DNA from: Devosia sp. 66-14
Lineage (GTDB): Bacteria; Pseudomonadota; Alphaproteobacteria; Rhizobiales; Devosiaceae
DNA length: 64,000 nt
Direction of reading: 5' to 3'
NCBI GenBank assembly: GCA_001899085.1
Contig: MKVB01000006.1
Span: 529,586-593,585, forward strand
The notes beneath the pieces are model-generated. The model was given only the letters and a program-made list of their open reading frames with translations, was not told where the DNA came from and did no database searches. A program made the position numbers and the translations under genes. Below are positions 17,749 through 30,545 of the stretch, in pieces (the first letter of the stretch is position 1; each line of letters begins with the position of its first letter).

Positions 17749-19416
17749 TCAGCTCTCCCGCAAATCAAACCACCCGATCCCCTTCATCTCCGCCTCATCC
17801 ACCGCCTCGTCATACCCCGCATCAGCATAGCGCATCACGCCGAGCGCGGTGTCATTGGTCAGCGCGTGCGACAGCCGCTCGTCGCCGGCCTCGGTCCCAT
17901 CCGCCACCAGCGTGACGCCCGCAGACGTCATGTAGCCGGCATAGCCGCCGCCGCCGGAATGAATCACCACCAGGTCGGCCATCGAAGCGGTGAGCAGCAT
18001 CGCATCGAGCAGCGGCCAGTCGGCGATGGCGTCGGAGCCGTCCTGCATGTTCTCGGTCATGATGTTGGGGTGGGCCATCGCCCCGGCATCGAGGTGATCT
18101 CTGGAGAACGCCACCGGCCCCGCAAGCTCGCCTGAGCGCACCAGGGCATTCACCGCCAGCGCCAGCGCTGTGCGCTCGCCATGCCCGAGCCAGGCGATGC
18201 GTGCCGGCAGGCCTTCGAACGGCACGTATTGCCGGGCCAGCCGGATCCAGTTGGTGACGATCTTGTTGTCCGGGAACATCTCCAGCACCAGGTCGTCGAT
18301 CCGTGCGATGTCCGACGCTTCGCCTGACAGCGCCATCCAGCGGAACGGCCCGATGGCGCGGGCGAATAGCGGCCTGAGATAGGCCTCGGTGAAGATCGGG
18401 ATGTCGAAGGCGTTCTCGACGCCGGCCTGCCTGGCTTGGGTGCGGATCAGGTTGCCATTGTCGAACACCTCCGCGCCGGCCGCCTGGAATCCCAGCATGG
18501 CCCGCACATGATCGGCGATCGAGGCACGGCTCGCCGCCATCAATTGGCCCTGCCCATCCACCCGCAGCCTGCGCACCTCGTCGAGGCTCATGCCCTTGGG
18601 CACGTAGCCGTAGACGAGGTCGTGCGCGCTGGTCTGGTCGGTGACGATGTCCGGGATAATGCCGCGCCGGAGAATTTCCGGGTAGACCTCGGCGGCATTG
18701 GCCACCAGCCCGACCGACAGCGCGCGCTTGTCGCGCACTGCCGCGGCGATCATTTCGAGCGCGGTATCGAGATCCGGCGCGATCTCCTCGAGATAGCCGA
18801 TTTCCTTCCGCCGCTCGGCCCGAACCGGGTCGACATCGACGTCGAGAATTGCGGCGCCCGCCATTCGGCCGGCCAGCGGCTGCGCCCCGCCCATGCCGCC
18901 CATCCCCGCCGTGAGGATGAAGCGGCCGGCAAGCGAACCACCGAAGCGCTTTTCGGCGATGCGCATGAAGATCTCGTAGGTGCCCTGAATGACACCCTGG
19001 CTGCCGATATACTGCCAGGCGCCGGCGGTGAGCCCGCCCCAGGCGATCAGGCCCTTCTTTTCGAGCTCGTAGAACACCTCGGCCTTGGCCCACTGCCCGA
19101 CAATGTTGCAGTTGGCCATGATCACCAGCGGCGCCTGCGCATGCGTCTTCAGCAGGCCGATCGGCTTGCCGGACTGGATGACCAGCGTCTGATCCTCGTC
19201 CATGGTGGTCAGCGCTTCGACGATTTGCCGATGCGCCGCCCAGTTGCGCGCCGCCTTGCCGAGCGCCGCGTAGACGATCAGCTTGTCCGGATCCTCACCG
19301 ACAGCGAGGACATTCTCGAGCAGGCGCAGCAACGCCTCCTGCCGCCAGCCCTTGGCGCGCAGCACCGGACCGGAGGGAATGGGGAAATTCGGATGGCGGG
19401 GATTGGGTTTTGGCAT
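17749..19416 (-). CDS. Urocanase family protein, candidate thiourocanate hydratase
   Basis: A 555-residue urocanase (HutU) family protein, cytoplasmic and expected to use tightly bound NAD+. The fold core is strongly conserved: YIGSQGVIQGTYE (136-148), LTAGMGGMGGAQPLAG (168-183), DQTSAHD (260-266) and RDHLDAG (439-445). Several active-site segments depart from canonical HutU: the reactive Cys of the GLPARICW loop is Ala408 (ARIAW), and the HHGGGVGMGFSQH segment is replaced by IHSGGGGYAGYMTS (485-498). No canonical hutH, hutI or hutG is nearby. With a MIO-less ammonia-lyase homolog and a thiohydantoin-desulfurase-family gene in the same unit, hydration of thiourocanate is the most economical role. 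Plain urocanate hydratase remains possible. Confidence 0.85.
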   Translation of the reverse strand: MPKPNPRHPNFPIPSGPVLRAKGWRQEALLRLLENVLAVGEDPDKLIVYAALGKAARNWAAHRQIVEALTTMDEDQTLVIQSGKPIGLLKTHAQAPLVIMANCNIVGQWAKAEVFYELEKKGLIAWGGLTAGAWQYIGSQGVIQGTYEIFMRIAEKRFGGSLAGRFILTAGMGGMGGAQPLAGRMAGAAILDVDVDPVRAERRKEIGYLEEIAPDLDTALEMIAAAVRDKRALSVGLVANAAEVYPEILRRGIIPDIVTDQTSAHDLVYGYVPKGMSLDEVRRLRVDGQGQLMAASRASIADHVRAMLGFQAAGAEVFDNGNLIRTQARQAGVENAFDIPIFTEAYLRPLFARAIGPFRWMALSGEASDIARIDDLVLEMFPDNKIVTNWIRLARQYVPFEGLPARIAWLGHGERTALALAVNALVRSGELAGPVAFSRDHLDAGAMAHPNIMTENMQDGSDAIADWPLLDAMLLTASMADLVVIHSGGGGYAGYMTSAGVTLVADGTEAGDERLSHALTNDTALGVMRYADAGYDEAVDEAEMKGIGWFDLRES

Positions 19417-19450
19417 GCGGTGGTTCTAGCGCACACCGCCGGCCGAGACG

Positions 19451-19568
19451 ACCCCCTCCCATCCTCCCCCTTAAAGGGGGAGGTGCCCCGCCGGGGCGTT
19501 AGGCACGATCGAAGACAGAGCCCCGACTCTTCACCTCCCCCTTCATGGGGGAGGCCGGGAGGGGGCCG
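19451..19568. repeat. Family A palindromic element, copy A2
   Basis: Lies in the 172-bp gap between the DUF917 and urocanase-like genes of the same operon. Outer arms CCCCCTCCC/GGGAGGGGG enclose hairpins CCTCCCCCTT-AA-AGGGGGAGG and CCTCCCCC-TTCAT-GGGGGAGG around the core GGCACGATCGA. Confidence 0.85.
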
Positions 19569-19588
19569 TCTGCTTCAGTCAGCCGCTC

Positions 19589-20716
19589 TTAAGCCCAGCC
19601 CTTCCGAGCCTTCTTCTTCCGCTTCACACCGTCGAGCGCGTATTTGGCCAGTTCGATCCCCATGGCCTTTTCGACCGGCGGATAGACCGCCGGGTCGACC
19701 ACCGAGGAGGAGAGCGGGATCACTTTCTTGGGGACGTGCAGCACGAAGACGAACATGCCTTCTCGCAACTGCCCGGCGCTGAGCGGCTGGCCGGCGGCAT
19801 CGAGCGTGGCGATCACATCGGGGAAAGTGGCGAGCCGGTTGCCGCCGGCATCGTCGATGGCCATGTACTCGTTCATGGTGTGGATGGTGACGGCCTTGTC
19901 GCCCTCACCCAAGACGAACCGCCCGATATCGAAGGCCTCTCTGGTGTAGACGAGGTCTTTCCTGGTCACCGCGCCCTTTACGAGGATGGTGCCGCCGGTC
20001 GCCTTGACGATGGCGTCGATGATCGCCGAGCCGCCCTTTTTCTCCGCTGCGATGATCGCCTCGCCGAGGCTCAAGGCCAGCGAGATGCCGCCGAGCGCCG
20101 CGTTCCGCTGCACATACTTGGCGCGGAGCGGGTTGCGACATGAGGCGATGAAGCCGCCCGACATGTCGGCCGCCGTGCGGAGGATCGGCGAAATCTTTGC
20201 CGTGGCGCCCTTCACCACCAGCTCGATGTAGCGGTTCTCGGCGCGATTGCCGCCCACGGCAGTCTGGATCATCTTCTTGGGCGATCCGGCCATGCCGATC
20301 GAGCCCATGTCGCCGGTCGGATGGGCGCGGATATCGCCCACCGCATCGACCACCTTGGTGCCGAGAATGGCACTCGGCAGCCAGGCGTTGAGCGTCGAGC
20401 TCTTGCCGTTCTGCCCAACCATCAGCCCGCGGACCTTGTCGCCCAGCGCCTTTTCGAGCAGCTTCACCGCCTTGACGTAGTCGACACCGCGCATCTCCCA
20501 AGGTGTGGTCGAAGCCGGCGCGCCGATTGCGGCGGCCGTCGCCACCCAGTCGCGTGGCTCCAGTTCCTCGATATCGACGAGTTCGGGCTTGCCGACGCTT
20601 ACCGCCGCATAACCGAGCATGCGGCCATGATCGGCCCAGCCACCGCCGCCGGCGGCATAGACGGAGCCGCCTTTCACCGCGGCTTCCACATCCTTCTCGG
20701 TCAGTACGCGACCCAC
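19589..20716 (-). CDS. DUF917 / S-methyl-thiohydantoin desulfurase-family protein
   Basis: A 375-residue DUF917 protein (PF06032). To my knowledge this family has been renamed after S-methyl-thiohydantoin desulfurase, a hydrolase acting on thiohydantoin rings. The hallmark Gly-rich start (VYAAGGGGWADHG, about residues 19-31), the central PTGDMGSIGMAGSPKK segment and the C-terminal PxxVYPPVEKAMG region are present. In this operon it would remove sulfur from 3-(5-oxo-2-thioxoimidazolidin-4-yl)propionate, the expected thiourocanate hydratase product, giving hydantoin-5-propionate. It starts with GTG one base after the stop of the M20 gene, so the two are tightly coupled. The C-terminus is unusually basic (VKRKKKARKGWA). 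The family call is strong; the substrate is inferred. Confidence 0.85.
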   Translation of the reverse strand: MGRVLTEKDVEAAVKGGSVYAAGGGGWADHGRMLGYAAVSVGKPELVDIEELEPRDWVATAAAIGAPASTTPWEMRGVDYVKAVKLLEKALGDKVRGLMVGQNGKSSTLNAWLPSAILGTKVVDAVGDIRAHPTGDMGSIGMAGSPKKMIQTAVGGNRAENRYIELVVKGATAKISPILRTAADMSGGFIASCRNPLRAKYVQRNAALGGISLALSLGEAIIAAEKKGGSAIIDAIVKATGGTILVKGAVTRKDLVYTREAFDIGRFVLGEGDKAVTIHTMNEYMAIDDAGGNRLATFPDVIATLDAAGQPLSAGQLREGMFVFVLHVPKKVIPLSSSVVDPAVYPPVEKAMGIELAKYALDGVKRKKKARKGWA

Positions 20717-20717
20717 T

Positions 20718-21956
20718 CTACAATTCCTTGTCCAACCGCTTCACCGCCTCCAGCAGCACGGCGGCGCCCAGCGCCACGTCGGCCGTTTCGGCATATTCGT
20801 CCGGCGTATGGCTGCGGCCGCCGAGGCAGGGGATGAAGATCATCGCCGCCTTGGTCACCCGCGCCATCCAGGCCGTGTCGTGCCCGGCGCCCGAGGCCAT
20901 GCGGCGATGGCGCGCCCCCACGGCCACGGCTGCCGCGTCGAGCGTATCAAGCACGAACGGGTCGCCAGGCGTTGGCAAATTGTCTGAAATGGTCAATGGC
21001 GGCTCTATCGTCACCCCGGTCGCGGCGGCCGTCGCGTTAACGAGGACTGCGAGCTCGGCGACGAAGCGCTGCATGTCCTCGCGTCGCTCGGCGCGCGCAT
21101 CGATCAGCAGCCGCGCGCGCGACGGCACGACGTTGGCCGCCCCAGGCTCGATCGAGAACTCGCCGACGGTGGCAGCGAAATGGAACTTGCCCTGGCTGAG
21201 CAGCGTCCCCAGTTCCTCGATCCCCAGCACCAGCCGCGCCGCGGTGGTCAACGCATCCTGGCGCGAGCCCATCGGAGTCGTGCCGGCATGGTCGGCCCGA
21301 CCGTTCACCACCACTTCGATCCGCGTAATTCCGGCAATCGCCGTCACCACGCCAATATCGAGATGCCCGTCCTCCAGCACCGGCCCCTGCTCGATATGCA
21401 GCTCGAGAAAGGCGGCGATGTCCTCACGCTTCTCGACCTTGCCCGGGTTGCCGCCCACCTCGGCGATCCCTTCACGCAAAGTGAACTGGTCGACCTCGCG
21501 GTCGAGCCAGTTGTCCGGCCTGACTCCAGCCATGCCGCGACTGCCGACGCAGGAGACGCCAAAGATCGACACCTCCTCGGCAAGGAAATCGACGATCTCC
21601 AGATCGTGCTCGAGCTGCACGCCCTGATCGGTCAGCGCCCGCGCCACCTCAAGGGCTGCGGAGACGCCGGCAATGCCGTCGAAGCGGCCACCATCGGGCA
21701 CGGTATCGGAGTGGGAGCCGAGCATGATGGTCTTGCCGCCGGTGCGGCCGCGACGGCGACCGATCAGGTTGCCGGAAGCGTCGACGCGCGTTTCCAGCCC
21801 GGCGGCCTCGAAGCACCGCACCAGCCACTCGCGGCCGCGGAGGAACATCGGGGTGAAGGCGCGACGGGTGTAGGGCCGCCCCGGCTCGGTGATCTCGGCG
21901 AGGGTCGCGATATCCTCGGCAATGCGGGCTTCCTGGGTGGGGAGATTGCGGGTCAT
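20718..21956 (-). CDS. M20 family Zn-dependent hydrolase (N-carbamoyl amino acid/allantoate amidohydrolase type)
   Basis: A 412-residue binuclear metallo-hydrolase of the allantoate amidohydrolase / L-carbamoylase branch of M20. Ligands are readable: His82 (GSHSDTVPDGG), Asp93 (RFDGIAG), Glu127-Glu128 (FLAEEVS), the HIEQGPVLE His, and the C-terminal GRSHTPDE His. The lid domain carries the GRADHAGTTPM dimer motif typical of carbamoylases. In the proposed pathway it hydrolyses N-carbamoyl-L-glutamate to glutamate, CO2 and ammonia; ureidoglycine or beta-ureidopropionate are alternatives. The ATG at 21956 is the real start: the frame continues upstream only because it runs into a family A repeat, which translates as a Pro/Gly-rich leader. 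Confidence 0.88.
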   Translation of the reverse strand: MTRNLPTQEARIAEDIATLAEITEPGRPYTRRAFTPMFLRGREWLVRCFEAAGLETRVDASGNLIGRRRGRTGGKTIMLGSHSDTVPDGGRFDGIAGVSAALEVARALTDQGVQLEHDLEIVDFLAEEVSIFGVSCVGSRGMAGVRPDNWLDREVDQFTLREGIAEVGGNPGKVEKREDIAAFLELHIEQGPVLEDGHLDIGVVTAIAGITRIEVVVNGRADHAGTTPMGSRQDALTTAARLVLGIEELGTLLSQGKFHFAATVGEFSIEPGAANVVPSRARLLIDARAERREDMQRFVAELAVLVNATAAATGVTIEPPLTISDNLPTPGDPFVLDTLDAAAVAVGARHRRMASGAGHDTAWMARVTKAAMIFIPCLGGRSHTPDEYAETADVALGAAVLLEAVKRLDKEL

Positions 21957-21970
21957 TGGTGGCACGCCGA

Positions 21971-22099
21971 GAGAGACGGCCCCCTCCCATCCTCCCCCAC
22001 AAGGGGGGAGGTGCCGCATCGAGTATCAGGCACGATCGAGCCACAAGCTCGACTCTTCACCTCCCCCCTTGTGGGGGAGGCCGGGAGGGGGCCCTCTCT
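21971..22099. repeat. Family A palindromic element, copy A3
   Basis: Between the hydantoinase-like and M20 genes. Outer arms GAGACGGCCCCCTCCC-like and GGGAGGGGGCCCTCTC enclose CCTCCCCC-ACA-AGGGGGGAGG and CCTCCCCCCTTGTGGGGGAGG, with GGCACGATCGAGC at the centre. It is the cleanest copy and has exact counterparts of the A2 core. Confidence 0.88.
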
Positions 22100-22113
22100 A
22101 TCAGTCAGCACCC

Positions 22114-23457
22114 TCACGGCCGCACCCACCGCCCTGCCCCGGGCTCGGCGACGTTGGTTCCGTCAAACACCTGCCTTCCACGCAGCCAGGTGCCGGCCAC
22201 CGTCCATGGCAGCTCGATGCCGTTGTATGGCGACCACCCCACCACATTGTGCCCCGAGCGTGCCGCGTCATACACCACCGGCCGATCCACCAGCACGGTG
22301 ATGTCGGCGTCCTTGCCCGCCTCGAGCGCGCCCTTGGTGCCCAGCCGAAAGTGCTTTGCCGGGTTGGCGGCCATCAGTTTTGCCGCCCAGGTCAGCGACA
22401 CGCCGCGCTCCAGTGCCCCCTTGACGAATAGCGGCACCATGGCCTCGAGCCCCGGCACGCCGGAGGAATTGGCCAGCATGTCCGGGTTGGTCTTCCGATC
22501 CTCGGACCAGCTGACGTGATCGGTCGAAACCAGCGTCACATTGCCGGCGGCGACCTGCCGCCACAGCGCTTCCACCTCGGCGCGCGGGCGGATCGGCGGG
22601 TTGATCTTGGCCTTGCCGCCGAGCCGGCGGACATCGTTTTCCTCATCGAGGGTCAGGTAGTGAATGCAGCACTCGATGGTGGCGCCAAAGCCGTGCGCCC
22701 GGTAGTCGGCAGCGATGTCGTAACCGCGGCTCAGCGAGCAGTGCACCACATGCGCGTCGCAGCCGGTTTGCGCTCCGGTCTCATAAATCTGCAGCGTCGC
22801 CAGCAGTTCGGTCAGCGGCGGCCGGCTCATGCCATGGGCCCGCCAGTCGGTGATCCCGGAGGCTTTCACCCGCGCCATGGCGGCGCGGACGCTCTCATCG
22901 TCTTCGTTGTGGACGCCCGCCGTCAGCCCGGTCTTCGCCACCTCAGCAAAGGCCTCGGCGAGCAGTGGCGGTGAAATGCGGGGGAAGCGTACGGGGTCGG
23001 TGCCGAAGGTCGAGAACTTGAACGCCGCGACGCCCGCCGCCGCCTGCTCGGCGATGCGGCTCGCCCCCTCCTCCGGGTTGATCGTGCCATAGAGGGCGAA
23101 ATCCACCCGGGCCTGCGGGGTGGCATGCGCCACCTTGATCCGCGCCGCCTCGGCCGAGCAGACGAGATTACCCTCGTCATAAGGCATGTCGACGATGGTG
23201 GTGACCCCACCGGCCGCCGCTGAACGGGTCGACCAGATGAAATCCTCCTGGTTCCTCTGGCTCAGCGAGTGGGTCTGCGCATCGATGGCGCCGGGCAGGA
23301 TCAGCGCCTTGCCGAGCAGATGCCGCTCGTGCGCGTGCGGCGGCGCCCCTTCGCCGACATGCACCACCTTGCCATCGCGCACCGCAACATAGCCATCCTC
23401 GATCAACATGGAAGGCAGCACCACCGTGCCGGCGAGGACGAGATCGAAATCGGACAT
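22114..23457 (-). CDS. Hydantoinase/allantoinase-like cyclic amidohydrolase
   Basis: A 447-residue amidohydrolase-superfamily protein of the dihydropyrimidinase/allantoinase group, which opens cyclic ureides such as hydantoins. Candidate binuclear-site residues are Lys147 (AFKFS, normally carboxylated), His183 (GVHNE), His239 (VVHCS) and Asp313 (STDHVSW). The usual first-strand HxH is altered to Gln61-Thr-His63 (PGAIDAQTHSLS), so one metal ligand is missing or replaced. In context it would hydrolyse hydantoin-5-propionate to N-carbamoylglutamate, feeding the M20 enzyme encoded next. The ATG start begins MSDFDLVLAG, as usual for the family. A family A palindrome separates it from the next gene. 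Confidence 0.87.
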   Translation of the reverse strand: MSDFDLVLAGTVVLPSMLIEDGYVAVRDGKVVHVGEGAPPHAHERHLLGKALILPGAIDAQTHSLSQRNQEDFIWSTRSAAAGGVTTIVDMPYDEGNLVCSAEAARIKVAHATPQARVDFALYGTINPEEGASRIAEQAAAGVAAFKFSTFGTDPVRFPRISPPLLAEAFAEVAKTGLTAGVHNEDDESVRAAMARVKASGITDWRAHGMSRPPLTELLATLQIYETGAQTGCDAHVVHCSLSRGYDIAADYRAHGFGATIECCIHYLTLDEENDVRRLGGKAKINPPIRPRAEVEALWRQVAAGNVTLVSTDHVSWSEDRKTNPDMLANSSGVPGLEAMVPLFVKGALERGVSLTWAAKLMAANPAKHFRLGTKGALEAGKDADITVLVDRPVVYDAARSGHNVVGWSPYNGIELPWTVAGTWLRGRQVFDGTNVAEPGAGRWVRP

Positions 23458-23509
23458 GTTGTGCCTTAAGCTCTCAGAATACGATGTTCCCCGGTAGGCC
23501 GGGGTGCTC

Positions 23510-24259
23510 CTAGGAACGCAGCCGGCGCTGACCGGTGCGGGCCATCAGGACCCGCTCGAGCGCCGACAGCGCATCATAGATCAGAACCGCCATCACGCCG
23601 ACCACCAGGCCGCCCTGGGCGATGAAGGCGATGTTGTTGCTGAGCAGCCCGGCGATGATCACCTCGCCCAGCGTCGAGGCGGCAACCGTCGAGCCGATGG
23701 TGGCGGTCGCCACGGAGATCACGACGGACAGGCGGATGCCGGCGAGGATCACCGGGGTCGCCAGCGGCAGCTCCACGCCCAGCAAGCGCTGCCGGTCGGT
23801 CATACCGACGCCGCGTGCGGCCTCGGTCACCGCCGGCGGCAAGGTGGTGAGGCCGGTCAGCGCGTTCTCGAAGATCGGCAGCAGCCCATAGAGGAACAGC
23901 GCCACCAAAGTCGGCGCAGTGCCGAAGCCGAGCACCGGCACGGCCAGCGCCAGTACCGCCACGGGCGGAAAGGTCTGGCCGATATTGGCGAGCGAGCGGC
24001 TCAGCGGCAGGAACTCGGCTCCGAACGGTCGGGTGACGAGGATGGCGAGCCCCACCGCCAGCAGCGTCGACGCGATGGTGGCGATGGCGACGATGGTCAG
24101 GTGGCTGAGGGTCAGGTTGAGCAGCGAGTTCTGCACATAGATCGCCGGCTGGCTGTTTTTGGTCAGCGGCTGGAACACCCAGGCGAAGCTCGTTGGCGTG
24201 ACGATGAACGCCACCAACAGCGCCAGGACCACCAGCCGGATGATCAGCCCCGGCTTCAT
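23510..24259 (-). CDS. ABC permease, osmoprotectant (OpuCB/EgtU-type)
   Basis: A 249-residue inner-membrane permease with about six helices and a BPD_transp_1 core, closest to the glycine-betaine/choline OpuC-type permeases. The EAA loop is VTEAARGVGMTDRQRLLGVELP, with the family-typical ALPPI-like TFPPVAVLALAVP segment upstream. Its ATG overlaps the stop of the ATPase gene (ATGA). With the second permease (25187-26374), the ATPase and the binding protein it makes a full importer. Related transporters in Streptococcus and Helicobacter (EgtUV) import ergothioneine, itself a betaine, which fits the surrounding enzymes. The substrate assignment is inference. Confidence 0.85.
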   Translation of the reverse strand: MKPGLIIRLVVLALLVAFIVTPTSFAWVFQPLTKNSQPAIYVQNSLLNLTLSHLTIVAIATIASTLLAVGLAILVTRPFGAEFLPLSRSLANIGQTFPPVAVLALAVPVLGFGTAPTLVALFLYGLLPIFENALTGLTTLPPAVTEAARGVGMTDRQRLLGVELPLATPVILAGIRLSVVISVATATIGSTVAASTLGEVIIAGLLSNNIAFIAQGGLVVGVMAVLIYDALSALERVLMARTGQRRLRS

Positions 24260-25194
24260 TGCGGGCGCTCGGCCCTGTGGGCGATGTCGTCGCGCCGGAT
24301 GCGGCCGATGCTGGCGCCATCGTCATCGACCACCGGCAGCATCTCACGGCCGGTCCACAGGCACTCGGCATAGGCATCGCGCAGAGAGGCATCGGCCGAG
24401 ATCGGCTCGCCTTGCGCCGGGCCGGGCTCGACCAGGTCGCGGACCTTGACCAACGACAGCAGGCGGAAGGGGCGCTCGCCGGTGCCGATCAGTTCGGCGA
24501 CGAACGGCGTTGCCGGTCGGGCGATGATCTCGTCGGGCGGCGCGTATTGCAGCAGCTTGCCCTTGTCCATCACGGCGATGCGCGAACCGAGATGGATCGC
24601 CTCCTCCATGTCGTGCGTCACCAGGACGATGGTGGTGCCGAAGCGCTTCTGGATGGCGAGCAGGTCCGATTGCGCCTTGGCGCGGATGATCGGGTCGAGC
24701 GCGCCGAACGGCTCGTCCATCAGCAGCAGTTTCGGCTCGGCCGCCAGCGCCCGCGCCACGCCGACACGCTGCTGCTGGCCGCCCGACAGCTCGCTCGGCA
24801 TGCGATCGCGGAACTCGGCCGGCGGCAGTTGGAACAGCTCCAGCAATTCATCGACCCGGGCGGCGATCCTGCCCTTGTCCCAGCCCAGCAGCGTCGGCAC
24901 GGTGGCGATGTTCTGGCCCACCGTGCGGTGCGGAAACAGTCCATGCCCCTGGATGGCGTAGCCGATGCGGCGGCGGAGCTCGAAGGCCGGGACGGCCCGG
25001 GTGTACTGCCCGTCGATCTTCACCGTGCCGGAGGTCGGCTCGATCAGCCGGTTGATCATCCTGAGGAGCGTGGTCTTGCCCGACCCCGAGGTGCCGACGA
25101 TCACCGCGATCTCGCCGTCGGCGACGGTGAGGCTCACATGGTCGACAACGGTCAGCTCGAGATAGTCCTTGGTGAGGGCTTCGATCTCAATCAC
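24256..25194 (-). CDS. ABC ATPase with C-terminal CBS domain (OpuCA/EgtV-type)
   Basis: A 312-residue ATPase of the quaternary-amine uptake family. Walker A is GTSGSGKTT, the signature LSGGQQQRVGVARAL and Walker B LLLMDEPFGALDP. Residues after about 240 form a single CBS unit (MLPVVDDDGASIGRIRRDDI), where related osmoprotectant ATPases carry two and use them to sense ionic strength or nucleotides. The start is GTG at 25194 (VIEIEALTKDY), overlapping the upstream permease stop by 8 bases; codons further upstream are shadow sequence. The only-half CBS pair suggests reduced osmotic gating. It overlaps the downstream permease by four bases. Confidence 0.88.
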   Translation of the reverse strand: MIEIEALTKDYLELTVVDHVSLTVADGEIAVIVGTSGSGKTTLLRMINRLIEPTSGTVKIDGQYTRAVPAFELRRRIGYAIQGHGLFPHRTVGQNIATVPTLLGWDKGRIAARVDELLELFQLPPAEFRDRMPSELSGGQQQRVGVARALAAEPKLLLMDEPFGALDPIIRAKAQSDLLAIQKRFGTTIVLVTHDMEEAIHLGSRIAVMDKGKLLQYAPPDEIIARPATPFVAELIGTGERPFRLLSLVKVRDLVEPGPAQGEPISADASLRDAYAECLWTGREMLPVVDDDGASIGRIRRDDIAHRAERPQ

Positions 25195-26374
25195 GGCGCG
25201 TATCCTTGGGTGAGACCATTTCGACAATTGCATCGAGCACGACCGCCGCGGCGAAGGCGAGCGCCACGGTTGGCACGGCGCCGAGCAGCACCAGGTCCAT
25301 CGCCGTCTGCCCGACGCCCTGGAACACGAAGACGCCAAAACCGCCGCCACCGATCAGCGCGGCAATGGTGGCGAGACCGATATTCTGCACCAGCACGATG
25401 CGGATGCCGGTGAGGATCACCGGAAAGGCCAGCGGGAACTCGACGGTCGTCAGCCGCTGCCAGTCGGTCATGCCCATGCCCTTGGCGGCATCATTGGCGG
25501 CGGGCGGCACGCCATCGAGGCCGACCACCGTATTGGCGACCACCGGCAGCAGCGAATAGGCAAACAGCGCCACCATGGCCGGCGCCGCACCGATGCCGGA
25601 GATGCCGACGGCGGAAGCACCGGGGATGTTGGCAGCCACCCAGGCGAGCGGCGCGATCAGGAGGCCGAACAGCGCAATCGACGGGATGGTCTGGATGGCG
25701 TTCAGCACGTTGAGCACCGGCGCGCGCCACGCGTCGCTGCGTTGGCAGAGCACGCCGATGGGGATGCCGGCCACCGTTGCCGCGGCGAGCGAGCCCAGCG
25801 CCAGCGCCAGATGCGTCTGGGCCTCGCGCCAGAAGGTGTCGCCGCGATTGGCATATTCACGCAGGATCGACAGGTCGTTCAGCGTGCCCGAGCCGAGCAG
25901 CACGGCGAAGAACAGAGCCACCGCCGCCAGCACGCCGATGCGGGTCCACGGCGTCAGCTTCAATCGCGCGATAGCGTCGGCTGCCAGAAGGGCGAAAGCG
26001 AAAACCAGCAGCCAGAAGCCGCCGCCGGGCGAAACGCGGGCGATCTTGTCGCCAGGCGGCGTCAGGAAGGTGCCGGCATGGCCGATGGCGACGAACAGCA
26101 GCGCCAGGACAACAAGGCTGGTGCCGAGCCGCCACAGGGTCGGCGTCCGGAGCAGCGCGATGGCTATGCCTGCGGCCAGCAGCACAGCGAGGATGGCGGC
26201 TTCCCAGCTCGGGAGTGCGGCGAGCAGGCCCTTGGATTCGCCGAGGACGATGCGGTTGGCGCGAAAGGCGGCGAAGGGCAGGAACGCGGCGATAGCAGCG
26301 AGTGCGGCGATCAGCAGGCCGAGCTTGTCGACGGCGAAGCTTCGTGTCGGTACGGCGATAGCAGCGTCGGTCAC
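25187..26374 (-). CDS. ABC permease with extra N-terminal membrane region (OpuC/YehY-like)
   Basis: A 395-residue membrane protein. The C-terminal half (about residues 190-390) is an OpuC-type permease with TFWREAQTHLALALGSL, IQTIPSIALFGLLIAPL and the EAA loop AANDAAKGMGMTDWQRL. The N-terminal 180 residues add about five further helices and a short soluble loop (PGDKIARVSPGGG), as in YehW/YehY-type and some betaine permeases. I start at GTG 26374 (VTDAAIAV), with GGAG about nine bases upstream. The open frame further upstream lies in a family B palindrome and is not coding. It probably pairs with the 249-residue permease as a heterodimer. Confidence 0.83.
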   Translation of the reverse strand: MTDAAIAVPTRSFAVDKLGLLIAALAAIAAFLPFAAFRANRIVLGESKGLLAALPSWEAAILAVLLAAGIAIALLRTPTLWRLGTSLVVLALLFVAIGHAGTFLTPPGDKIARVSPGGGFWLLVFAFALLAADAIARLKLTPWTRIGVLAAVALFFAVLLGSGTLNDLSILREYANRGDTFWREAQTHLALALGSLAAATVAGIPIGVLCQRSDAWRAPVLNVLNAIQTIPSIALFGLLIAPLAWVAANIPGASAVGISGIGAAPAMVALFAYSLLPVVANTVVGLDGVPPAANDAAKGMGMTDWQRLTTVEFPLAFPVILTGIRIVLVQNIGLATIAALIGGGGFGVFVFQGVGQTAMDLVLLGAVPTVALAFAAAVVLDAIVEMVSPKDTRRD

Positions 26375-26395
26375 CGGTATCGCTCCATACTCGAT

Positions 26396-26473
26396 GTCAT
26401 CCCTGCGAAAGCAGGGACCCAACTCGCGGCCAGCGCGGGCTGGGCGATGGGTCCCTGCTTTCGCAGGGATGAC
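26396..26473. repeat. Family B palindromic element, copy B1
   Basis: A perfect 26-bp inverted repeat, GTCATCCCTGCGAAAGCAGG... on the left and its complement on the right, with a 26-bp GC-rich spacer. It sits in the 193-bp gap between the binding-protein gene and the permease gene, so it may be a partial terminator that sets a high binding-protein to permease ratio. Confidence 0.88.
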
Positions 26474-26567
26474 AAGCGGTGGTCGTTGCCGAAGCGCGTC
26501 ATGCCCAAAACACTAGGGGTGGGCAGTCGTCCTGCCCACCCCCAAAATGCATTGACCGTGCGGCGGC

Positions 26568-27476
26568 TTACTTCAGGAAGCCGTTGGTCTTCAGCCAGTC
26601 GATGGCGACGTCCTTGGCAGCTTCGCCACCGACCTGGATACGGCCGTTGAGCGTCTGCAGGGTGGTCAGGTCGAGCTTGGCGAAGACCGGCTTCAGCAGC
26701 TCTTCGATCTGCGGGTTGGCCTTGAGCACCGCTTCGCGGATGATCGGGGCCGGCTCGTAGACGGGCTGCACGCCCTTGTCGTCGGTCATGACGACGAGAC
26801 CCGAGGGGGCGATGCCGCCATCGGTGCCGTAGACCATGGCGGCGTTCACGCCATTGGTCTGCTGCGCGGCTGCGGCGATGGTCGCCGCCGTATCACCGCC
26901 CGAAAGGGTCACCAGCTGGTCCGGCTTCAGGGTGAAGCCATAGACTTCCTGGAACTTGGGCAGCGCGGCCGGCGACGAGACGAACTCGGCCGAGGCGGCC
27001 AGCTTGATGTTGCCGCCGCCGGCGATGTAGGCGCCGAGCTCGCTGAAGGTCGCGAGCTTGTTGGCATCGGCCACGTCCTTGCGGACGGCCACGGCCCAGG
27101 TGTTGTTGGCGGGAGCGGGCGACAGCCAGACAATCTTGTTGGCGTCGTAGTCGAGCTTCTTGGCTTCCTCATACGCCTTGGCGGCGTCGTTCCACAGCGG
27201 ATCGTCGGCCTTCTCGAAGAAGAACGCGGCGTTGCCGGTATATTCGGGATAAATGTCGATCTCGCCGGCGATGATCGCCTGGCGCACGACGGGCGTGCCG
27301 CCGAGCTGGATCTTTTCGGTGACGGCGACACCATTGGCCTGCAGCACCTGGCTGATGATGTTGCCGAGCAAGCCACCTTCAGTATCGATCTTCGAGGACA
27401 CGACGACCTGGGCGTTCGCTGCAGTCACCGTGAAGGCCAGCGCCGCGACGGCGCCGAGCAGTTTCTTCGAAAGCAT
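26568..27476 (-). CDS. Osmoprotectant-type substrate-binding protein (OpuBC/EgtU-like)
   Basis: A 302-residue periplasmic binding protein of the OpuAC/ProX-like family. A signal peptide (MLSKKLLGAVAALAFTVTAA, cleavage near ANAQ) precedes the mature protein. It has hallmarks of quaternary-amine binders: EGGLLGNIISQVL near the start, AGEIDIYPEYTGNAAFF in the first lobe and a Tyr/Trp-containing hinge (ANNTWAVAV). The ATG at 27476 has AGGAG upstream; the open frame extends 25 codons without leader features. It is encoded between the MIO-less ammonia-lyase homolog and the permease. The likely ligand is a betaine, with ergothioneine proposed from context. Confidence 0.87.
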   Translation of the reverse strand: MLSKKLLGAVAALAFTVTAANAQVVVSSKIDTEGGLLGNIISQVLQANGVAVTEKIQLGGTPVVRQAIIAGEIDIYPEYTGNAAFFFEKADDPLWNDAAKAYEEAKKLDYDANKIVWLSPAPANNTWAVAVRKDVADANKLATFSELGAYIAGGGNIKLAASAEFVSSPAALPKFQEVYGFTLKPDQLVTLSGGDTAATIAAAAQQTNGVNAAMVYGTDGGIAPSGLVVMTDDKGVQPVYEPAPIIREAVLKANPQIEELLKPVFAKLDLTTLQTLNGRIQVGGEAAKDVAIDWLKTNGFLK

Positions 27477-27522
27477 GATGGTCTCCTTATTGTTCCAGCC
27501 GTGCAGTCCCTGGGCCGGAATT

Positions 27523-27549
27523 GGCGCCAAACCTATACGGGCGCCAAAC
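27523..27549 (-). promoter_or_regulatory. Tandem GGCGCCAAAC direct repeat, candidate operator
   Basis: The 10-mer GGCGCCAAAC occurs twice with a 17-base period inside the 94-bp gap upstream of the binding-protein gene. GGCGCC is self-palindromic, so each unit could be a dimer half. No matching site was seen elsewhere in the operon by eye. Confidence 0.35.
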
Positions 27550-27570
27550 AAAAGTCATACCCCCGGCATG

Positions 27571-29124
27571 CTACGCGACCGGCCCCAGTGCGAAAAACTC
27601 GTCCAGTGCCGGGATGGGCGCGTGGGAAATCAGTTCCGCCATGGTCTGTTCGGAGCCGAGGTCGCTTTCGATGATTTCGACTTCGGCCGAGAGCGGCCGG
27701 TCCACCTGATAAAAGGCCGCGTGGGTGCGCACCTTGTCGTAGACCATGCCCGGCACGCCGCTGGGCCGATCCCCCAGGATGTCCATGGCCTGGGCAGAGA
27801 GCAGGCCCTCGAGTGCGGCGAGGCGCTTCAGCGCCCGCACCTGCCGCTCGAAGCGCTCCACCACCAACGGCAGGAACGACACCTCGTCTTCGAGCCCCGC
27901 CGCCACCACCAGTGACTGCGCCGAGACCGGCACCGACATCGACAGCGCCCGAGCGAAGAGCTCGCCGGCCAGCTTGATGATCGGGCCGAAGCCGGTGGCA
28001 ATGGCGCCGCGCGGCACCAGGTTGATCGGCAGGTCGCGGCGCGCGCCATTGCTGAGCAGCACGCAGCGGTTGAACGAGTTGCGCGCCGCATGGGCCAGCG
28101 CCAGTTGCGCGGTCTGCAGGTAGATGGTCACGTCGAGCGGCAGCGAGCCGCCCGAGGTCAGCACCTGCCCGTCGACCACCACCGGATTGTCATCGGTGCG
28201 GCCAGTGGCAGCGAGCACGGTGCGGCCAGCGACCAGCAGCGTGTCGAAGCCCGAGCCGAACACCTGCGCCATCATGCGCAGCGACAGCGGATCCTGCACA
28301 TGGGTGGCGTTCGGCCAGTCCCAGCCCATGGCGTTGTGGTAGAGCCAGGCGCCGATCTCGGCTTCGCGCTCGGTCCCCACATGCGCTACGGCCTTCCAGG
28401 GGTCGCGCGAGGCGCCGAGCGCGCCGGCAGTGGTCAGGCTGGTGGCGAGCAGCATCCGCATGGCGGTAGCCGCCGAACGCACCGCTTCGGCGGCGGCGGC
28501 AAAGCCCACGGCATTGACGCTGACTGAAGCGAGGCTGTCGCGCGGCGCCATGCGGCAGGGCTTCAGCCCGGCCTCGGCCAGTGCCGCTTCGGCCGACATG
28601 CGCCGGTTCTGGTACACCGCCTCGCCGACCCCGGTCAGCACGGCGCCGATCTGGCCCATCAGCCCGATATCGGCCGTGCCGATCGAGCCGGTGCGCCGCA
28701 CCACCGGCACCACGTCCTTGTCGAGCAGCGCCAGGTAGGCATCGACCAGGCCGCGCGAACAACCGACCCGGCCGGTCAGCGCGGTATTGACGCGGATCGC
28801 CATGGCGCTGCGCACCACGGAACTGGGGAACGGCGCTCCGGTGCCGAAATGATGCGCCCGCACCAGCCCGAGATTAAACATCTCGAGTTCTTCGGGCGAC
28901 CATTCGACATCCTTCATGGCGCCGACGCCGGTATTGGCGCCATAGACCGCCTCGCCGCGCGCGATCTTGTCCTCGACCACCTTGCGGGCGACATCGACGC
29001 GCGCCATGGCGGCATCGTCGGCGGCAAGCGAAACCGCCCGTGCCCCGACCCGCGCCAGACTCGCAAAGCTCATGGGCTTGCCGTCGAGGGAAAGGGTACC
29101 GGACTGGGTCTGAAGGTGATGCAT
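27571..29124 (-). CDS. MIO-less HAL/PAL-family lyase, candidate ergothionase
   Basis: A 517-residue member of the aromatic amino acid lyase superfamily. The fold landmarks are present: YGANTGVG (61-68), LVRAHHFGTG (88-96), TDDNPVV (310-316) and QDPLSLR (277-283). The cofactor-forming region reads GSIGTADIG (146-154) where histidine ammonia-lyases have GSVGASGDL, so the Ala-Ser-Gly triad that cyclises to MIO is absent. I recall that ergothionase, which eliminates trimethylamine from ergothioneine, is a HAL relative working by acid/base catalysis without MIO. That fits here, with thiourocanate as product for the urocanase-like enzyme. The alternative is a non-catalytic or other betaine lyase. 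The frame is intact throughout, so this is not a decaying hutH. Confidence 0.85.
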   Translation of the reverse strand: MHHLQTQSGTLSLDGKPMSFASLARVGARAVSLAADDAAMARVDVARKVVEDKIARGEAVYGANTGVGAMKDVEWSPEELEMFNLGLVRAHHFGTGAPFPSSVVRSAMAIRVNTALTGRVGCSRGLVDAYLALLDKDVVPVVRRTGSIGTADIGLMGQIGAVLTGVGEAVYQNRRMSAEAALAEAGLKPCRMAPRDSLASVSVNAVGFAAAAEAVRSAATAMRMLLATSLTTAGALGASRDPWKAVAHVGTEREAEIGAWLYHNAMGWDWPNATHVQDPLSLRMMAQVFGSGFDTLLVAGRTVLAATGRTDDNPVVVDGQVLTSGGSLPLDVTIYLQTAQLALAHAARNSFNRCVLLSNGARRDLPINLVPRGAIATGFGPIIKLAGELFARALSMSVPVSAQSLVVAAGLEDEVSFLPLVVERFERQVRALKRLAALEGLLSAQAMDILGDRPSGVPGMVYDKVRTHAAFYQVDRPLSAEVEIIESDLGSEQTMAELISHAPIPALDEFFALGPVA

Positions 29125-29175: not shown

Positions 29176-29727
29176 TTACACCGGCGCGAAGGTCAGGCCG
29201 GACGCGGTTCCTTCAAGCCTTTCCTTCAAGGAAGAGGACGCGATCAAAGCAATGGGCCAACCGTCAACTCTGAACAGGTGAGCATTCCCAACGCGTTCTG
29301 GATCGATGCGCAACTCAAGCACCATTCGCAGTTCACCCGCCTTTTCGGGTCGCTTACCGCCCTCAGGCCACAAGGTGTAGACGGAGTTTGCATAGTCGAA
29401 GCAGTCTAGAGCACTCGCCACGTTCAGCACCTCGAACCCTGGCACACCGGCTATGTGAACTGGAAAACGCTCGACGCTCAAACCGCAGAGAGATTCGAAT
29501 GTGGCCCCAATTTCTCGTCGGACGACGGGCATATCGAATGGCCCGAAACTGAAGTCCAACTCCAATCCTTGCTGCAGAACTGCAAGCTCACGGGGCCTCG
29601 GTCCTGTGTAGGAGCGTCCCTCCGTGAATGCCCTGGCATCGATCGCCTGCCCCGCCTCATCGGTCGGCTCGGACAGAAACCACTGCGGCTGGATAGTGTG
29701 GTCGAAACCCAGTCGATAGAAGGGCAT
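29176..29727 (-). CDS. Imm11-family (PF07791) immunity-like protein
   Basis: A 183-residue cytoplasmic protein resembling the Imm11 family of polymorphic-toxin immunity proteins. Characteristic C-terminal blocks are ALDCFDYANSVYTLWPEGG, LELRIDPERVGNAHLFR and DGWPIALIASSSLKERLE, which match the Asp-Cys, hydrophobic and LKxRLE blocks I associate with that family. The ATG at 29727 has AGAGG upstream; earlier in-frame codons are not plausible starts. It is more AT-rich than its neighbours and interrupts an otherwise metabolic gene string, suggesting later acquisition. No cognate toxin, VgrG, PAAR or Rhs gene is visible in the window, so it is an orphan. Confidence 0.68.
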   Translation of the reverse strand: MPFYRLGFDHTIQPQWFLSEPTDEAGQAIDARAFTEGRSYTGPRPRELAVLQQGLELDFSFGPFDMPVVRREIGATFESLCGLSVERFPVHIAGVPGFEVLNVASALDCFDYANSVYTLWPEGGKRPEKAGELRMVLELRIDPERVGNAHLFRVDGWPIALIASSSLKERLEGTASGLTFAPV

Positions 29728-29750
29728 TCGATAGACCTCTGCGGGTGATA

Positions 29751-30545
29751 CTACCCCCGGCTCCCCGGCAGCGGATAGCGCTCCACCTCGCGTAACAGCT
29801 CGATGAAGCTGCCGACCGCGGTCTCCACGGTGATCCGTCCCTTGTCGGCAGTCGCCAGGTGCGCGTCGCCGGCGGTGCCGAGCGGGTTGATGTCGCTGGC
29901 GATCCACGCATAGCTCGTTGGCCCGATCGGCCGCATGTATTTGTAGGCCTGCTCGTCGCGCGCCGCGACCGAGGGGTAATCCTGCAGCTTTTCGCGGTTC
30001 ACCAGTTCGGGCCTCAGGTGCATCACCACGGAGGTTTCGCTGTCGCCGCCATGGATGCCGTGGCGGTTCTCGATGTCGGAATAGATGTCCTTGGGCCAGT
30101 ACTGGCTCCAGCCGGTCTTCACCGCCAGCATGCCGGCGCGCACCCTGAGTTCGCGGGCCACGATGTCGAGGATCGAGACGTTGCCGCCATGCGAGTTGAC
30201 GAACACCACCTTCATGACACCGGCGCGGGCGATCTCGAGCCCGACCTGCGTCCAGGCATCGATCAGGTTGGTGGCGGTGTGGCTGAGCGTCCCGGTCTGC
30301 CAGATATGTTCGTTGGATTTGCCGATCGCCTGCACCGGCAGGATGCGGATATCGAGGTCGGCAGGCGCCCGCTCGACCAGCAGGTCGAGGTGCCCCTGGT
30401 TGATGATGGTGTCGGTCCCGACCGGCAGATGCGGCCCATGCTGCTCGACCGCCGCGGTGGGGAACACCGCTATGGTCTTCATCGGATCGATGTCATGGAA
30501 TTCGAAGGCGGAAAAGTCGTTCCACCAGATCTTGCGGTAGCTCAT
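29751..30545 (-). CDS. Creatininase family amidohydrolase
   Basis: A 264-residue metal-dependent amidohydrolase of the creatininase/FAPy-deformylase family. Ligands match the pattern: Glu34, His36 (EQHGPHLPVGTD with Asp45), a His in FVNSHGGN (119) and Glu170 in HGGDSET. Members hydrolyse creatinine, formamidopyrimidines or related cyclic and linear amides. The gene runs in the same direction as the catabolic operon, 49 bp after the Rid gene and 23 bp before the Imm11 gene. It could also serve the divergent NMT1/cytosine-deaminase block, as formamidopyrimidine deformylases do in pyrimidine salvage. The substrate is unresolved. Confidence 0.88.
   Translation of the reverse strand: MSYRKIWWNDFSAFEFHDIDPMKTIAVFPTAAVEQHGPHLPVGTDTIINQGHLDLLVERAPADLDIRILPVQAIGKSNEHIWQTGTLSHTATNLIDAWTQVGLEIARAGVMKVVFVNSHGGNVSILDIVARELRVRAGMLAVKTGWSQYWPKDIYSDIENRHGIHGGDSETSVVMHLRPELVNREKLQDYPSVAARDEQAYKYMRPIGPTSYAWIASDINPLGTAGDAHLATADKGRITVETAVGSFIELLREVERYPLPGSRG

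Follow-up and report, generated by a model that had tools for sequence, protein, structure and literature searches.

A candidate ergothioneine catabolic operon with an OsmF-type importer in Devosia sp. 66-14

A five-step bacterial pathway for the catabolism of ergothioneine was reportedly reconstituted in 2021 by Beliaeva, Leisinger and Seebeck (ACS Chem Biol). The pathway itself is thus already described and not new, and the uncertain part of the locus presented here is what its importer carries. All five enzyme types of that pathway are encoded together in Devosia sp. 66-14; the locus differs from the described system in having an alphaproteobacterial host, and in the presence of an OsmF-type importer inside the operon, an arrangement found in Devosia and Salinarimonas. 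The enzyme of the first step, ergothionase, is described as lacking MIO in PMC13405746. Literature searches returned no title on this operon among the matches listed, nothing on ergothioneine in Devosia, and a single match for ergothioneine together with OsmF, which is a review article on micronutrition in oral cancer.

The window analysed is a 64,000-nt stretch of the Devosia sp. 66-14 genome, and all coordinates are positions within it, counted from 1 at its 5' end. Nine minus-strand genes lie in one row between positions 29124 and 17749, in the order lyase, four-gene importer, ErtD, ErtE, TDS and TUR (Table 1). An earlier, sequence-only reading had placed nine frames in one direction, all of which are present at the same coordinates and on the same strand. 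The families it had named are borne out for all nine genes by Pfam and NCBIfam: PF00221 for the lyase, an OpuAC binding protein, two BPD_transp_1 permeases and an ABC ATPase, followed by amidohydrolase, M20, DUF917 (now S-Me-THD) and urocanase proteins.

Table 1. Genes and intergenic repeats of the Devosia sp. 66-14 locus (window coordinates)
Feature	Position	Strand	Basis or remark
ETL, ergothionase-like lyase, 517 aa	27571..29124	-	PF00221; PDB relative 6s7j; no MIO triad
Periplasmic substrate-binding protein, OsmF type (frame open to 27551)	26568..27473	-	NF049931; PDB 5teu, 5uve, 4nd9
Dispersed hairpin repeat, binding protein/permease 1 gap	26395..26474		self-complementary match
ABC permease 1	25187..26374	-	PF00528
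ABC ATPase (frame open to 25350)	24256..25233	-	PF00005; ProV-like TIGR01186 below cut-off
ABC permease 2	23510..24259	-	PF00528, 65.5 bits vs 26.4
ErtD, hydantoin-5-propionate amidohydrolase	22114..23457	-	NF058538
Dispersed palindromic repeat, ErtD/ErtE gap	21972..22099
ErtE, N-carbamoyl-L-glutamate amidohydrolase, M20 (frame open to 22019)	20718..21956	-	NF058540
TDS, thiohydantoin desulfurase (DUF917 / S-Me-THD)	19589..20716	-	NF058529
Second copy of the ErtD/ErtE-gap palindromic repeat, TDS/TUR gap	19445..19571
TUR, thiourocanate hydratase	17749..19416	-	NF058530

Taken together, the gene set is very probably a catabolic operon for scavenged ergothioneine, predicted to encode a five-enzyme route to glutamate. 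The OsmF-type ABC importer would bring in ergothioneine, from which the MIO-less lyase would eliminate trimethylamine to give thiourocanate, and thiourocanate hydratase would convert this to thiohydantoin-propionate. The DUF917 desulfurase would then swap sulfur for oxygen with release of sulfide, ErtD would open the resulting hydantoin-5-propionate to N-carbamoyl-L-glutamate, and ErtE would split the latter into glutamate, ammonia and carbon dioxide. The same route had been proposed in the sequence-only reading, and conserved synteny upholds it, together with curated models that cover four of the enzymes and, for the lyase, MIO loss and its relatives. The four enzymes that pass curated NCBIfam cut-offs are thiourocanate hydratase, thiohydantoin desulfurase, ErtD and ErtE. 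A search with the EgtD model gave no match over the cut-off in this genome, a result to be read as lacking a positive control because none of 14 control genomes (0/14) passed it either.

TUR scores 1032.7 bits on the thiourocanate hydratase model NF058530 (cut-off 930). It also exceeds the hutU cut-off (685.8 vs 375), and its best PDB relative, 7ned, was deposited as a urocanate hydratase. HutU from the same genome shows the converse, with 964.9 bits on hutU and only 700.5 on NF058530 against the cut-off of 930. TDS scores 589.7 bits on the thiohydantoin desulfurase model NF058529, where the cut-off is 440. Ergothionase reportedly accepts ergothioneine sulfonic acid, which counts for a reading in which the operon's substrate is the sulfonate, or S-methyl-ergothioneine, instead of ergothioneine. 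Alternative pathways that use related enzymes exist for both compounds: NCBIfam has models for the S-methyl enzymes, and PMC13405746 lists a reference on a sulfonate pathway. The Devosia proteins are homologous to the S-methyl-thiourocanate pathway enzymes (NF058531, NF058532), yet stay below both cut-offs, with TUR at 742.6 bits against 880 and TDS at 278.4 against 450, while the thio models are passed; on these scores the S-methyl variant was rejected. A sulfonate route would presumably have no need of a thiohydantoin desulfurase. Both substrates are considered very improbable here, and ergothioneine is retained.

The lyase finds its best PDB relative in 6s7j, an ergothionase of Treponema denticola (1.8e-51, 178.8 bits), with the best HAL chain at 154.5 bits. 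The two proteins are both of the HAL family and both lack MIO. The MIO site reads GSIG(T/C)A-D in the window lyase and 11 orthologues, and GSVGASGD in the genome's own HutH; in its alignment 6s7j lacks the additional HAL residue at this site. The MIO triad is thus missing from all 12 lyases and present in HutH; for the window lyase its absence had been noted from the sequence. Five residues (K71, D72, N204, H345 and K384) are common to the 12 lyases and 6s7j, and differ in HAL 1gkj and in HutH.

Overall similarity counts against this assignment: the lyase is 28.5% identical to 6s7j (136/477), the HAL chain being at least as similar (137/472), and among 203 invariant columns compared, 33 agree with 6s7j but not HAL and 30 with HAL but not 6s7j. 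The number of common residues therefore does not discriminate ergothionase from HAL. What separates the two is the kind of residue, Lys, Asp, Asn and His as opposed to mainly small and hydrophobic ones, and the charged and polar residues point to ergothionase. Also on the negative side, the lyase matched no ergothionase model in NCBIfam, which may hold none.

That the locus might be a second histidine-utilisation operon is suggested by the membership of its lyase and hydratase in the HAL and urocanase families, and by the hutU score of TUR. Set against this, the lyase has lost the MIO triad and reaches 217.6 bits on the hutH model (cut-off 539.15), and the remaining operon genes are unsuited to imidazolonepropionate chemistry. 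Furthermore, a separate hutF-hutI-hutH-hutU cluster lies elsewhere in the genome, each member over its cut-off, which makes a histidine operon very unlikely; on this ground histidine utilisation was ruled out, its remaining probability being negligible. The earlier argument from missing hutI and hutG stands for the locus, since imidazolonepropionase and formiminoglutamate hydrolase had no match among the ten scanned frames of the stretch, but not for the genome, where hutI accompanies hutF, hutH and hutU.

For the last two steps of the proposed ergothioneine route, ErtD scores 767.6 bits on NF058538 (cut-off 600) and ErtE 576.8 on NF058540 (cut-off 520). Members of the dihydropyrimidinase superfamily, to which ErtD belongs, typically carry a full H-x-H metal motif. 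This motif is incomplete in ErtD, where Gln61 occupies the position expected for the first His, and Q-x-H is found in 91 of 91 distinct relatives, an observation that counts against the assignment. ErtE scores higher, at 635.8 bits, on the general Zn-hydrolase model NF009531, which likewise counts against its specific name.

Conservation of the locus was followed in the family, where 52 of 136 genomes, this one included, carry the lyase at 61% identity or above, three of them as partial genes (hand count). Synteny was counted in 45 of the 51 others, with G094, G036, G069, G010, G066 and G079 set aside because the gene was partial, the contig short or the sequence not retrieved. In 33 of the 45 all nine genes recur with order and strand unchanged, which excludes chance. 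Among the rest, ErtD and ErtE are not recognisable in G043 and G045, ErtD is missing from G075, G018 has no other enzymes after the importer within the stretch examined, and G083, G125 and G020 have no importer within theirs. Of the 45 loci, five (G053, G098, G076, G021 and G086) end at or near the contig or stretch end. A wider set of 82 loci comprised 80 of 257 relatives plus two plasmid loci (L168 and L169), with importer matches below 40% identity disregarded. The five enzymes occur without the importer in 50 of these, 39 of which are from Rhizobium, where 39 of 40 loci have this form. A second arrangement is seen in Ochrobactrum quorumnocens, whose importer is divergent, with about 1.7 kb between it and the operon. 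Complete ergothioneine-to-glutamate gene sets are thereby placed in soil- and plant-associated Alphaproteobacteria (Devosia, Rhizobium, Salinarimonas and Ochrobactrum), which bears on the persistence of ergothioneine in soil.

The importer had been compared with the OpuC-type EgtUV importers; judged by its sequence, it is OsmF-type and not EgtU-like. The binding protein scores 501 bits on NF049931 (OsmF, glycine betaine; cut-off 400), and in a PDB search it is far closer to the OsmF-type chain 5teu (487 bits) than to EgtUC chains (about 97-104 bits). The ATPase reaches 280.3 bits on TIGR01186 (ProV-like), below the cut-off of 326.6. A PDB search with a paralogue of the binding protein as query matched four chains, none of them EgtUC. 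EgtU, as described in Zhang 2022 (PMC9732360), likewise has an OpuAC-type binding domain. With residues mapped on the binding protein by motif and spacing, and not by residue-by-residue alignment to EgtUC, the four aromatic cage positions, an Asn, Lys242, Ile243 and Glu375 correspond, whereas the invariant Gly244 is replaced by Asp, Arg379 by Ser and Thr296 by Asn. On the same mapping, position 244 is Asp in 50 of 50 operon binding proteins and in 26 of 26 others, the latter including two (L190 and L194) from genomes with the lyase on another contig. The pocket residues are alike in operon copies and in copies away from the lyase, the sole deviating operon protein, at five positions, being the long-branched L086. 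An ergothioneine-specific clade of operon proteins was not supported: non-operon proteins are nested among operon copies, and the tree has seven label changes, at least six forced by well-supported branches.

Because the EgtU residues differ and the importer family also occurs without the pathway, we infer ergothioneine as the importer's substrate rather than observe it; this import step, taken alone, is considered probable. What sets the Devosia protein apart from an OsmF-type glycine betaine binding protein, whose cut-off it passes, is its genetic tie to the ergothioneine operon. A less probable reading, which contests the import step only, is that a general betaine/choline-type OsmF system merely sits in the operon and that ergothioneine enters mainly by another way. 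It draws on the NCBIfam name, on the shared pocket, on the 39 Rhizobium loci in which the four other enzymes stand beside the lyase with no adjoining importer, and on distribution: among 199 genomes of the same order, 37 have the binding protein (E 1e-60) and six the lyase (E 1e-100), 31 of these 37 yielded no lyase match, and a desulfurase over the cut-off was absent from all five tested among those 31. Ergothioneine import is favoured by the position of the importer inside the operon, after the first enzyme gene and before the second, in the 33 syntenic family genomes, by its adjoining the operon in another arrangement in Ochrobactrum, and by a search at E 1e-60 that turned up no other copy in this genome. 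More speculatively, OsmF-type systems, annotated as glycine betaine importers, might, alongside EgtU, constitute another family of ergothioneine importers in bacteria; the stand-alone copies, whose pocket is the same, would then bring it in too, for antioxidant use and not as food. The operon offers a specific and cheap test of ergothioneine binding by OsmF-type proteins.

Three of the gaps between the genes carry dispersed repeats (Table 1). The half-site of the hairpin repeat between the binding protein and permease 1 matches the genome 42 times in forward and 41 times in reverse orientation, and the core palindrome of the repeat between ErtD and ErtE occurs in 155 places.

Nine co-directional genes, overlapping or separated by 1 to 193 bases, form what reads clearly as a complete operon for ergothioneine catabolism. 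The row proposed in the sequence-only reading is present, and so, judged by model matches, would be its five-enzyme route with every step encoded: four enzymes exceed curated cut-offs, and the lyase, without MIO, has an ergothionase as its best solved relative. Hairpin repeats occupy three of the operon gaps and recur at many sites in the 5.7-Mb genome, the core palindrome of one family at 155 places, and the other family with 42 matches in forward and 41 in reverse orientation, frequently as inverted pairs 56 bases apart.

Location of the operon and of associated features (window positions unless a contig or locus is named)
Feature	Location	Strand	Remark
Operon	29124-17749	-	Lyase, OsmF-type binding protein, permease, ATPase, permease, hydantoinase-like enzyme (ErtD), M20 enzyme (ErtE), DUF917 protein, urocanase-like protein
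Dispersed palindromic repeats, two families	26395-26474, 21972-22099, 19445-19571, 59870-59967		First three in operon gaps
ErtD	22114-23457	-	Gln61 at metal motif
Imm11-like gene	29176-29907		Between creatininase-family gene and lyase
Creatininase-family gene	29751-30545	-	Upstream of operon
hutF, hutI, hutH, hutU	about C6:39000-46000 (contig of same genome)		Each over model cut-off
Two adjacent DUF917-family genes	G000:C10:45306-47392 (same genome)		116.6 and 84.3 bits, below desulfurase cut-off
Small ORF, 109-121 codons	L109 15326-15691, L113 15410-15739, L116 15384-15734 (lyase loci)		Between desulfurase and thiourocanate hydratase
Lyase region with a gap of about 1.4 kb without listed gene	L168 13170-16894 (Rhizobium sp. 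SL42 plasmid)		Gap between lyase and ErtD; toxin-antitoxin pair upstream of lyase

Against the thiourocanate hydratase equivalog (cut-off 930), the urocanase-like protein reaches 1032.7 bits; it also exceeds the hutU cut-off (685.8 bits against 375) and falls under that of the S-methyl-thiourocanate model (742.6 against 880), whereas the genome's own HutU shows the opposite pattern, with 964.9 bits for hutU and 700.5 for the thiourocanate model. Its closest solved relative, 7ned (798.9 bits), was deposited as a urocanate hydratase; a thiourocanate hydratase structure was reportedly presented alongside the ergothioneine catabolic pathway. The paper on that pathway is Beliaeva 2021. The DUF917 protein passes the thiohydantoin desulfurase model (589.7 bits, cut-off 440) and not the S-methyl model (278.4, cut-off 450). 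ErtD reaches 767.6 bits on its model (cut-off 600) and ErtE 576.8 (cut-off 520), the latter outscored by a general Zn-hydrolase model at 635.8 bits. The pathway enzymes are thus already known, as the curated Ert models attest. In ErtD, Gln61 replaces the first His of H-x-H, the usual metal motif at that position, in 91 of 91 distinct relatives, with the five other expected ligand positions retained; the metal site may be different.

The lyase falls far under the hutH cut-off (217.6 bits against 539.15), and an NCBIfam scan matched no ergothionase model. Among solved structures it matches best the ergothionase chain 6s7j of Treponema denticola (178.8 bits), ahead of the best HAL chain, 1gkj of Pseudomonas putida (154.5 bits). 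Percent identity does not discriminate between them (136/477 and 137/472, respectively). A tally of shared residues does no better: among 203 columns invariant in 12 orthologues, 33 are common to 6s7j alone, 30 to HAL alone and 47 to both. Small or hydrophobic residues predominate in the HAL-only set; those common to 6s7j and not the HAL chain include Lys71, Asp72, Asn204, His345 and Lys384, at all five of which the genome's own HutH differs. The strongest sign of a predicted ergothionase identity is loss of the MIO triad, noticed from the first: Ala-Ser-Gly is replaced by T/C-Ala, one residue fewer, in all 12 orthologues, and the window lyase aligns with 6s7j, which likewise lacks MIO, without a gap at this site. 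Ergothionase is described as being without MIO in an excerpt of PMC13405746.

A histidine-utilisation operon was rejected, the genome having a separate hutF/hutI/hutH/hutU cluster; the earlier reading had already called histidine use less likely, and hutI, absent from the operon in that reading, lies in that cluster. The EgtD route of ergothioneine synthesis is probably absent from this genome, because a search with the EgtD model found no match, a search with no positive control since none of 14 control genomes exceeded the cut-off either.

The lyase occurs at a minimum of 61% identity in 52 of 136 family genomes, own genome included (three partial). Among 45 others with fetched surroundings, 33 have all nine genes in identical order and strand, and five are truncated at or close to the end of a contig or fetched stretch. 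Within the stretch fetched, two (G083, G125) show no importer; one (G020) is rearranged and likewise shows none; two (G043, G045) lack recognisable ErtD and ErtE; one (G075) lacks ErtD; and one (G018) shows no further operon genes beyond the importer in the stretch fetched, with a desulfurase over cut-off on a different contig. A wider set of 82 loci comprised 80 from a named collection (80 retained of 257 relatives) and two plasmid loci. Leaving out importer matches below 40% identity, 50 of the 82 carry the five enzymes but no importer, and all nine genes are present in 19. By genus, taken from record titles, the importer adjoins the lyase in 25/25 Devosia and 2/2 Salinarimonas loci, and in 0/40 Rhizobium, 0/2 Shinella and 0/1 Pelagibacterium loci; of the 40 Rhizobium loci, 39 carry the other four enzymes in full. 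Ochrobactrum quorumnocens has a divergently oriented importer about 1.7 kb from the lyase.

The point of interest is the OsmF-type importer, with ergothioneine as its putative substrate. EgtUV importers had been cited for comparison; an osmoprotectant-type ABC system is indeed in the operon, but it is OsmF-type and far from EgtUC by score. The binding protein exceeds the OsmF model cut-off, matches its three nearest solved relatives at 476-487 bits and 4wep, named OsmF, at 358.5, and EgtUC chains at only about 97-104. When the EgtU positions given in PMC9732360 are mapped through motifs and their spacing, the cage becomes Tyr, Asn, Trp, Tyr, Tyr; Lys242, Ile243 and Glu375 are retained, and Gly244, Thr296 and Arg379 become Asp, Asn and Ser. 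The same residues occur in 26 binding proteins away from a lyase (including L190 and L194, whose genomes carry the lyase on another contig), the only deviation being an Asn in place of the Arg379 counterpart in one copy; Pro at 275, next to the pocket, varies in six of the 26. Across 199 genomes of the order, the binding protein (E 1e-60) was found in 37 and the lyase (E 1e-100) in six; of the 37, the lyase is adjacent in four, on a different contig in two and not found at that threshold in 31, five of which were searched for the desulfurase, with none over cut-off. The importer family therefore extends beyond the pathway. Nor do the operon binding proteins form a single clade: the tree shows seven label changes, and the nearest lyase-less copy, 90% identical, nests within the Devosia operon group at a fork that is not starred. 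That the importer sits inside the operon speaks for ergothioneine as what it takes up, a substrate that sequence alone cannot settle.

A search of an open-access library found no paper on both ergothioneine and Devosia; subscription journals were mostly outside its scope, so the operon may already be published. One paper there, of unrelated title, mentions both ergothioneine and OsmF. An excerpt of PMC13405746 lists ergothionase from Treponema denticola, Burkholderia, Agrobacterium radiobacter, Alcaligenes faecalis, Clostridium symbiosum and, doubtfully, E. coli; with A. radiobacter listed there, an alphaproteobacterial ergothionase is therefore already in print.

Among neighbouring genes, the creatininase-family gene has 16 matches in the fetched loci, 14 listed at 87-97% identity, with several stretches from one genome; it scores 86.5 bits on the MftE model, under the cut-off of 172. 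Matches to the Imm11-like gene are carried by only three fetched stretches, all of one genome. The small ORF, found in three of five inspected importer-less loci, resembles TfoX N-terminal proteins by eye; the window has 172 bases at that site. On the Rhizobium sp. SL42 plasmid, an AbrB-family and VapC-type toxin-antitoxin pair lies directly upstream of the lyase.
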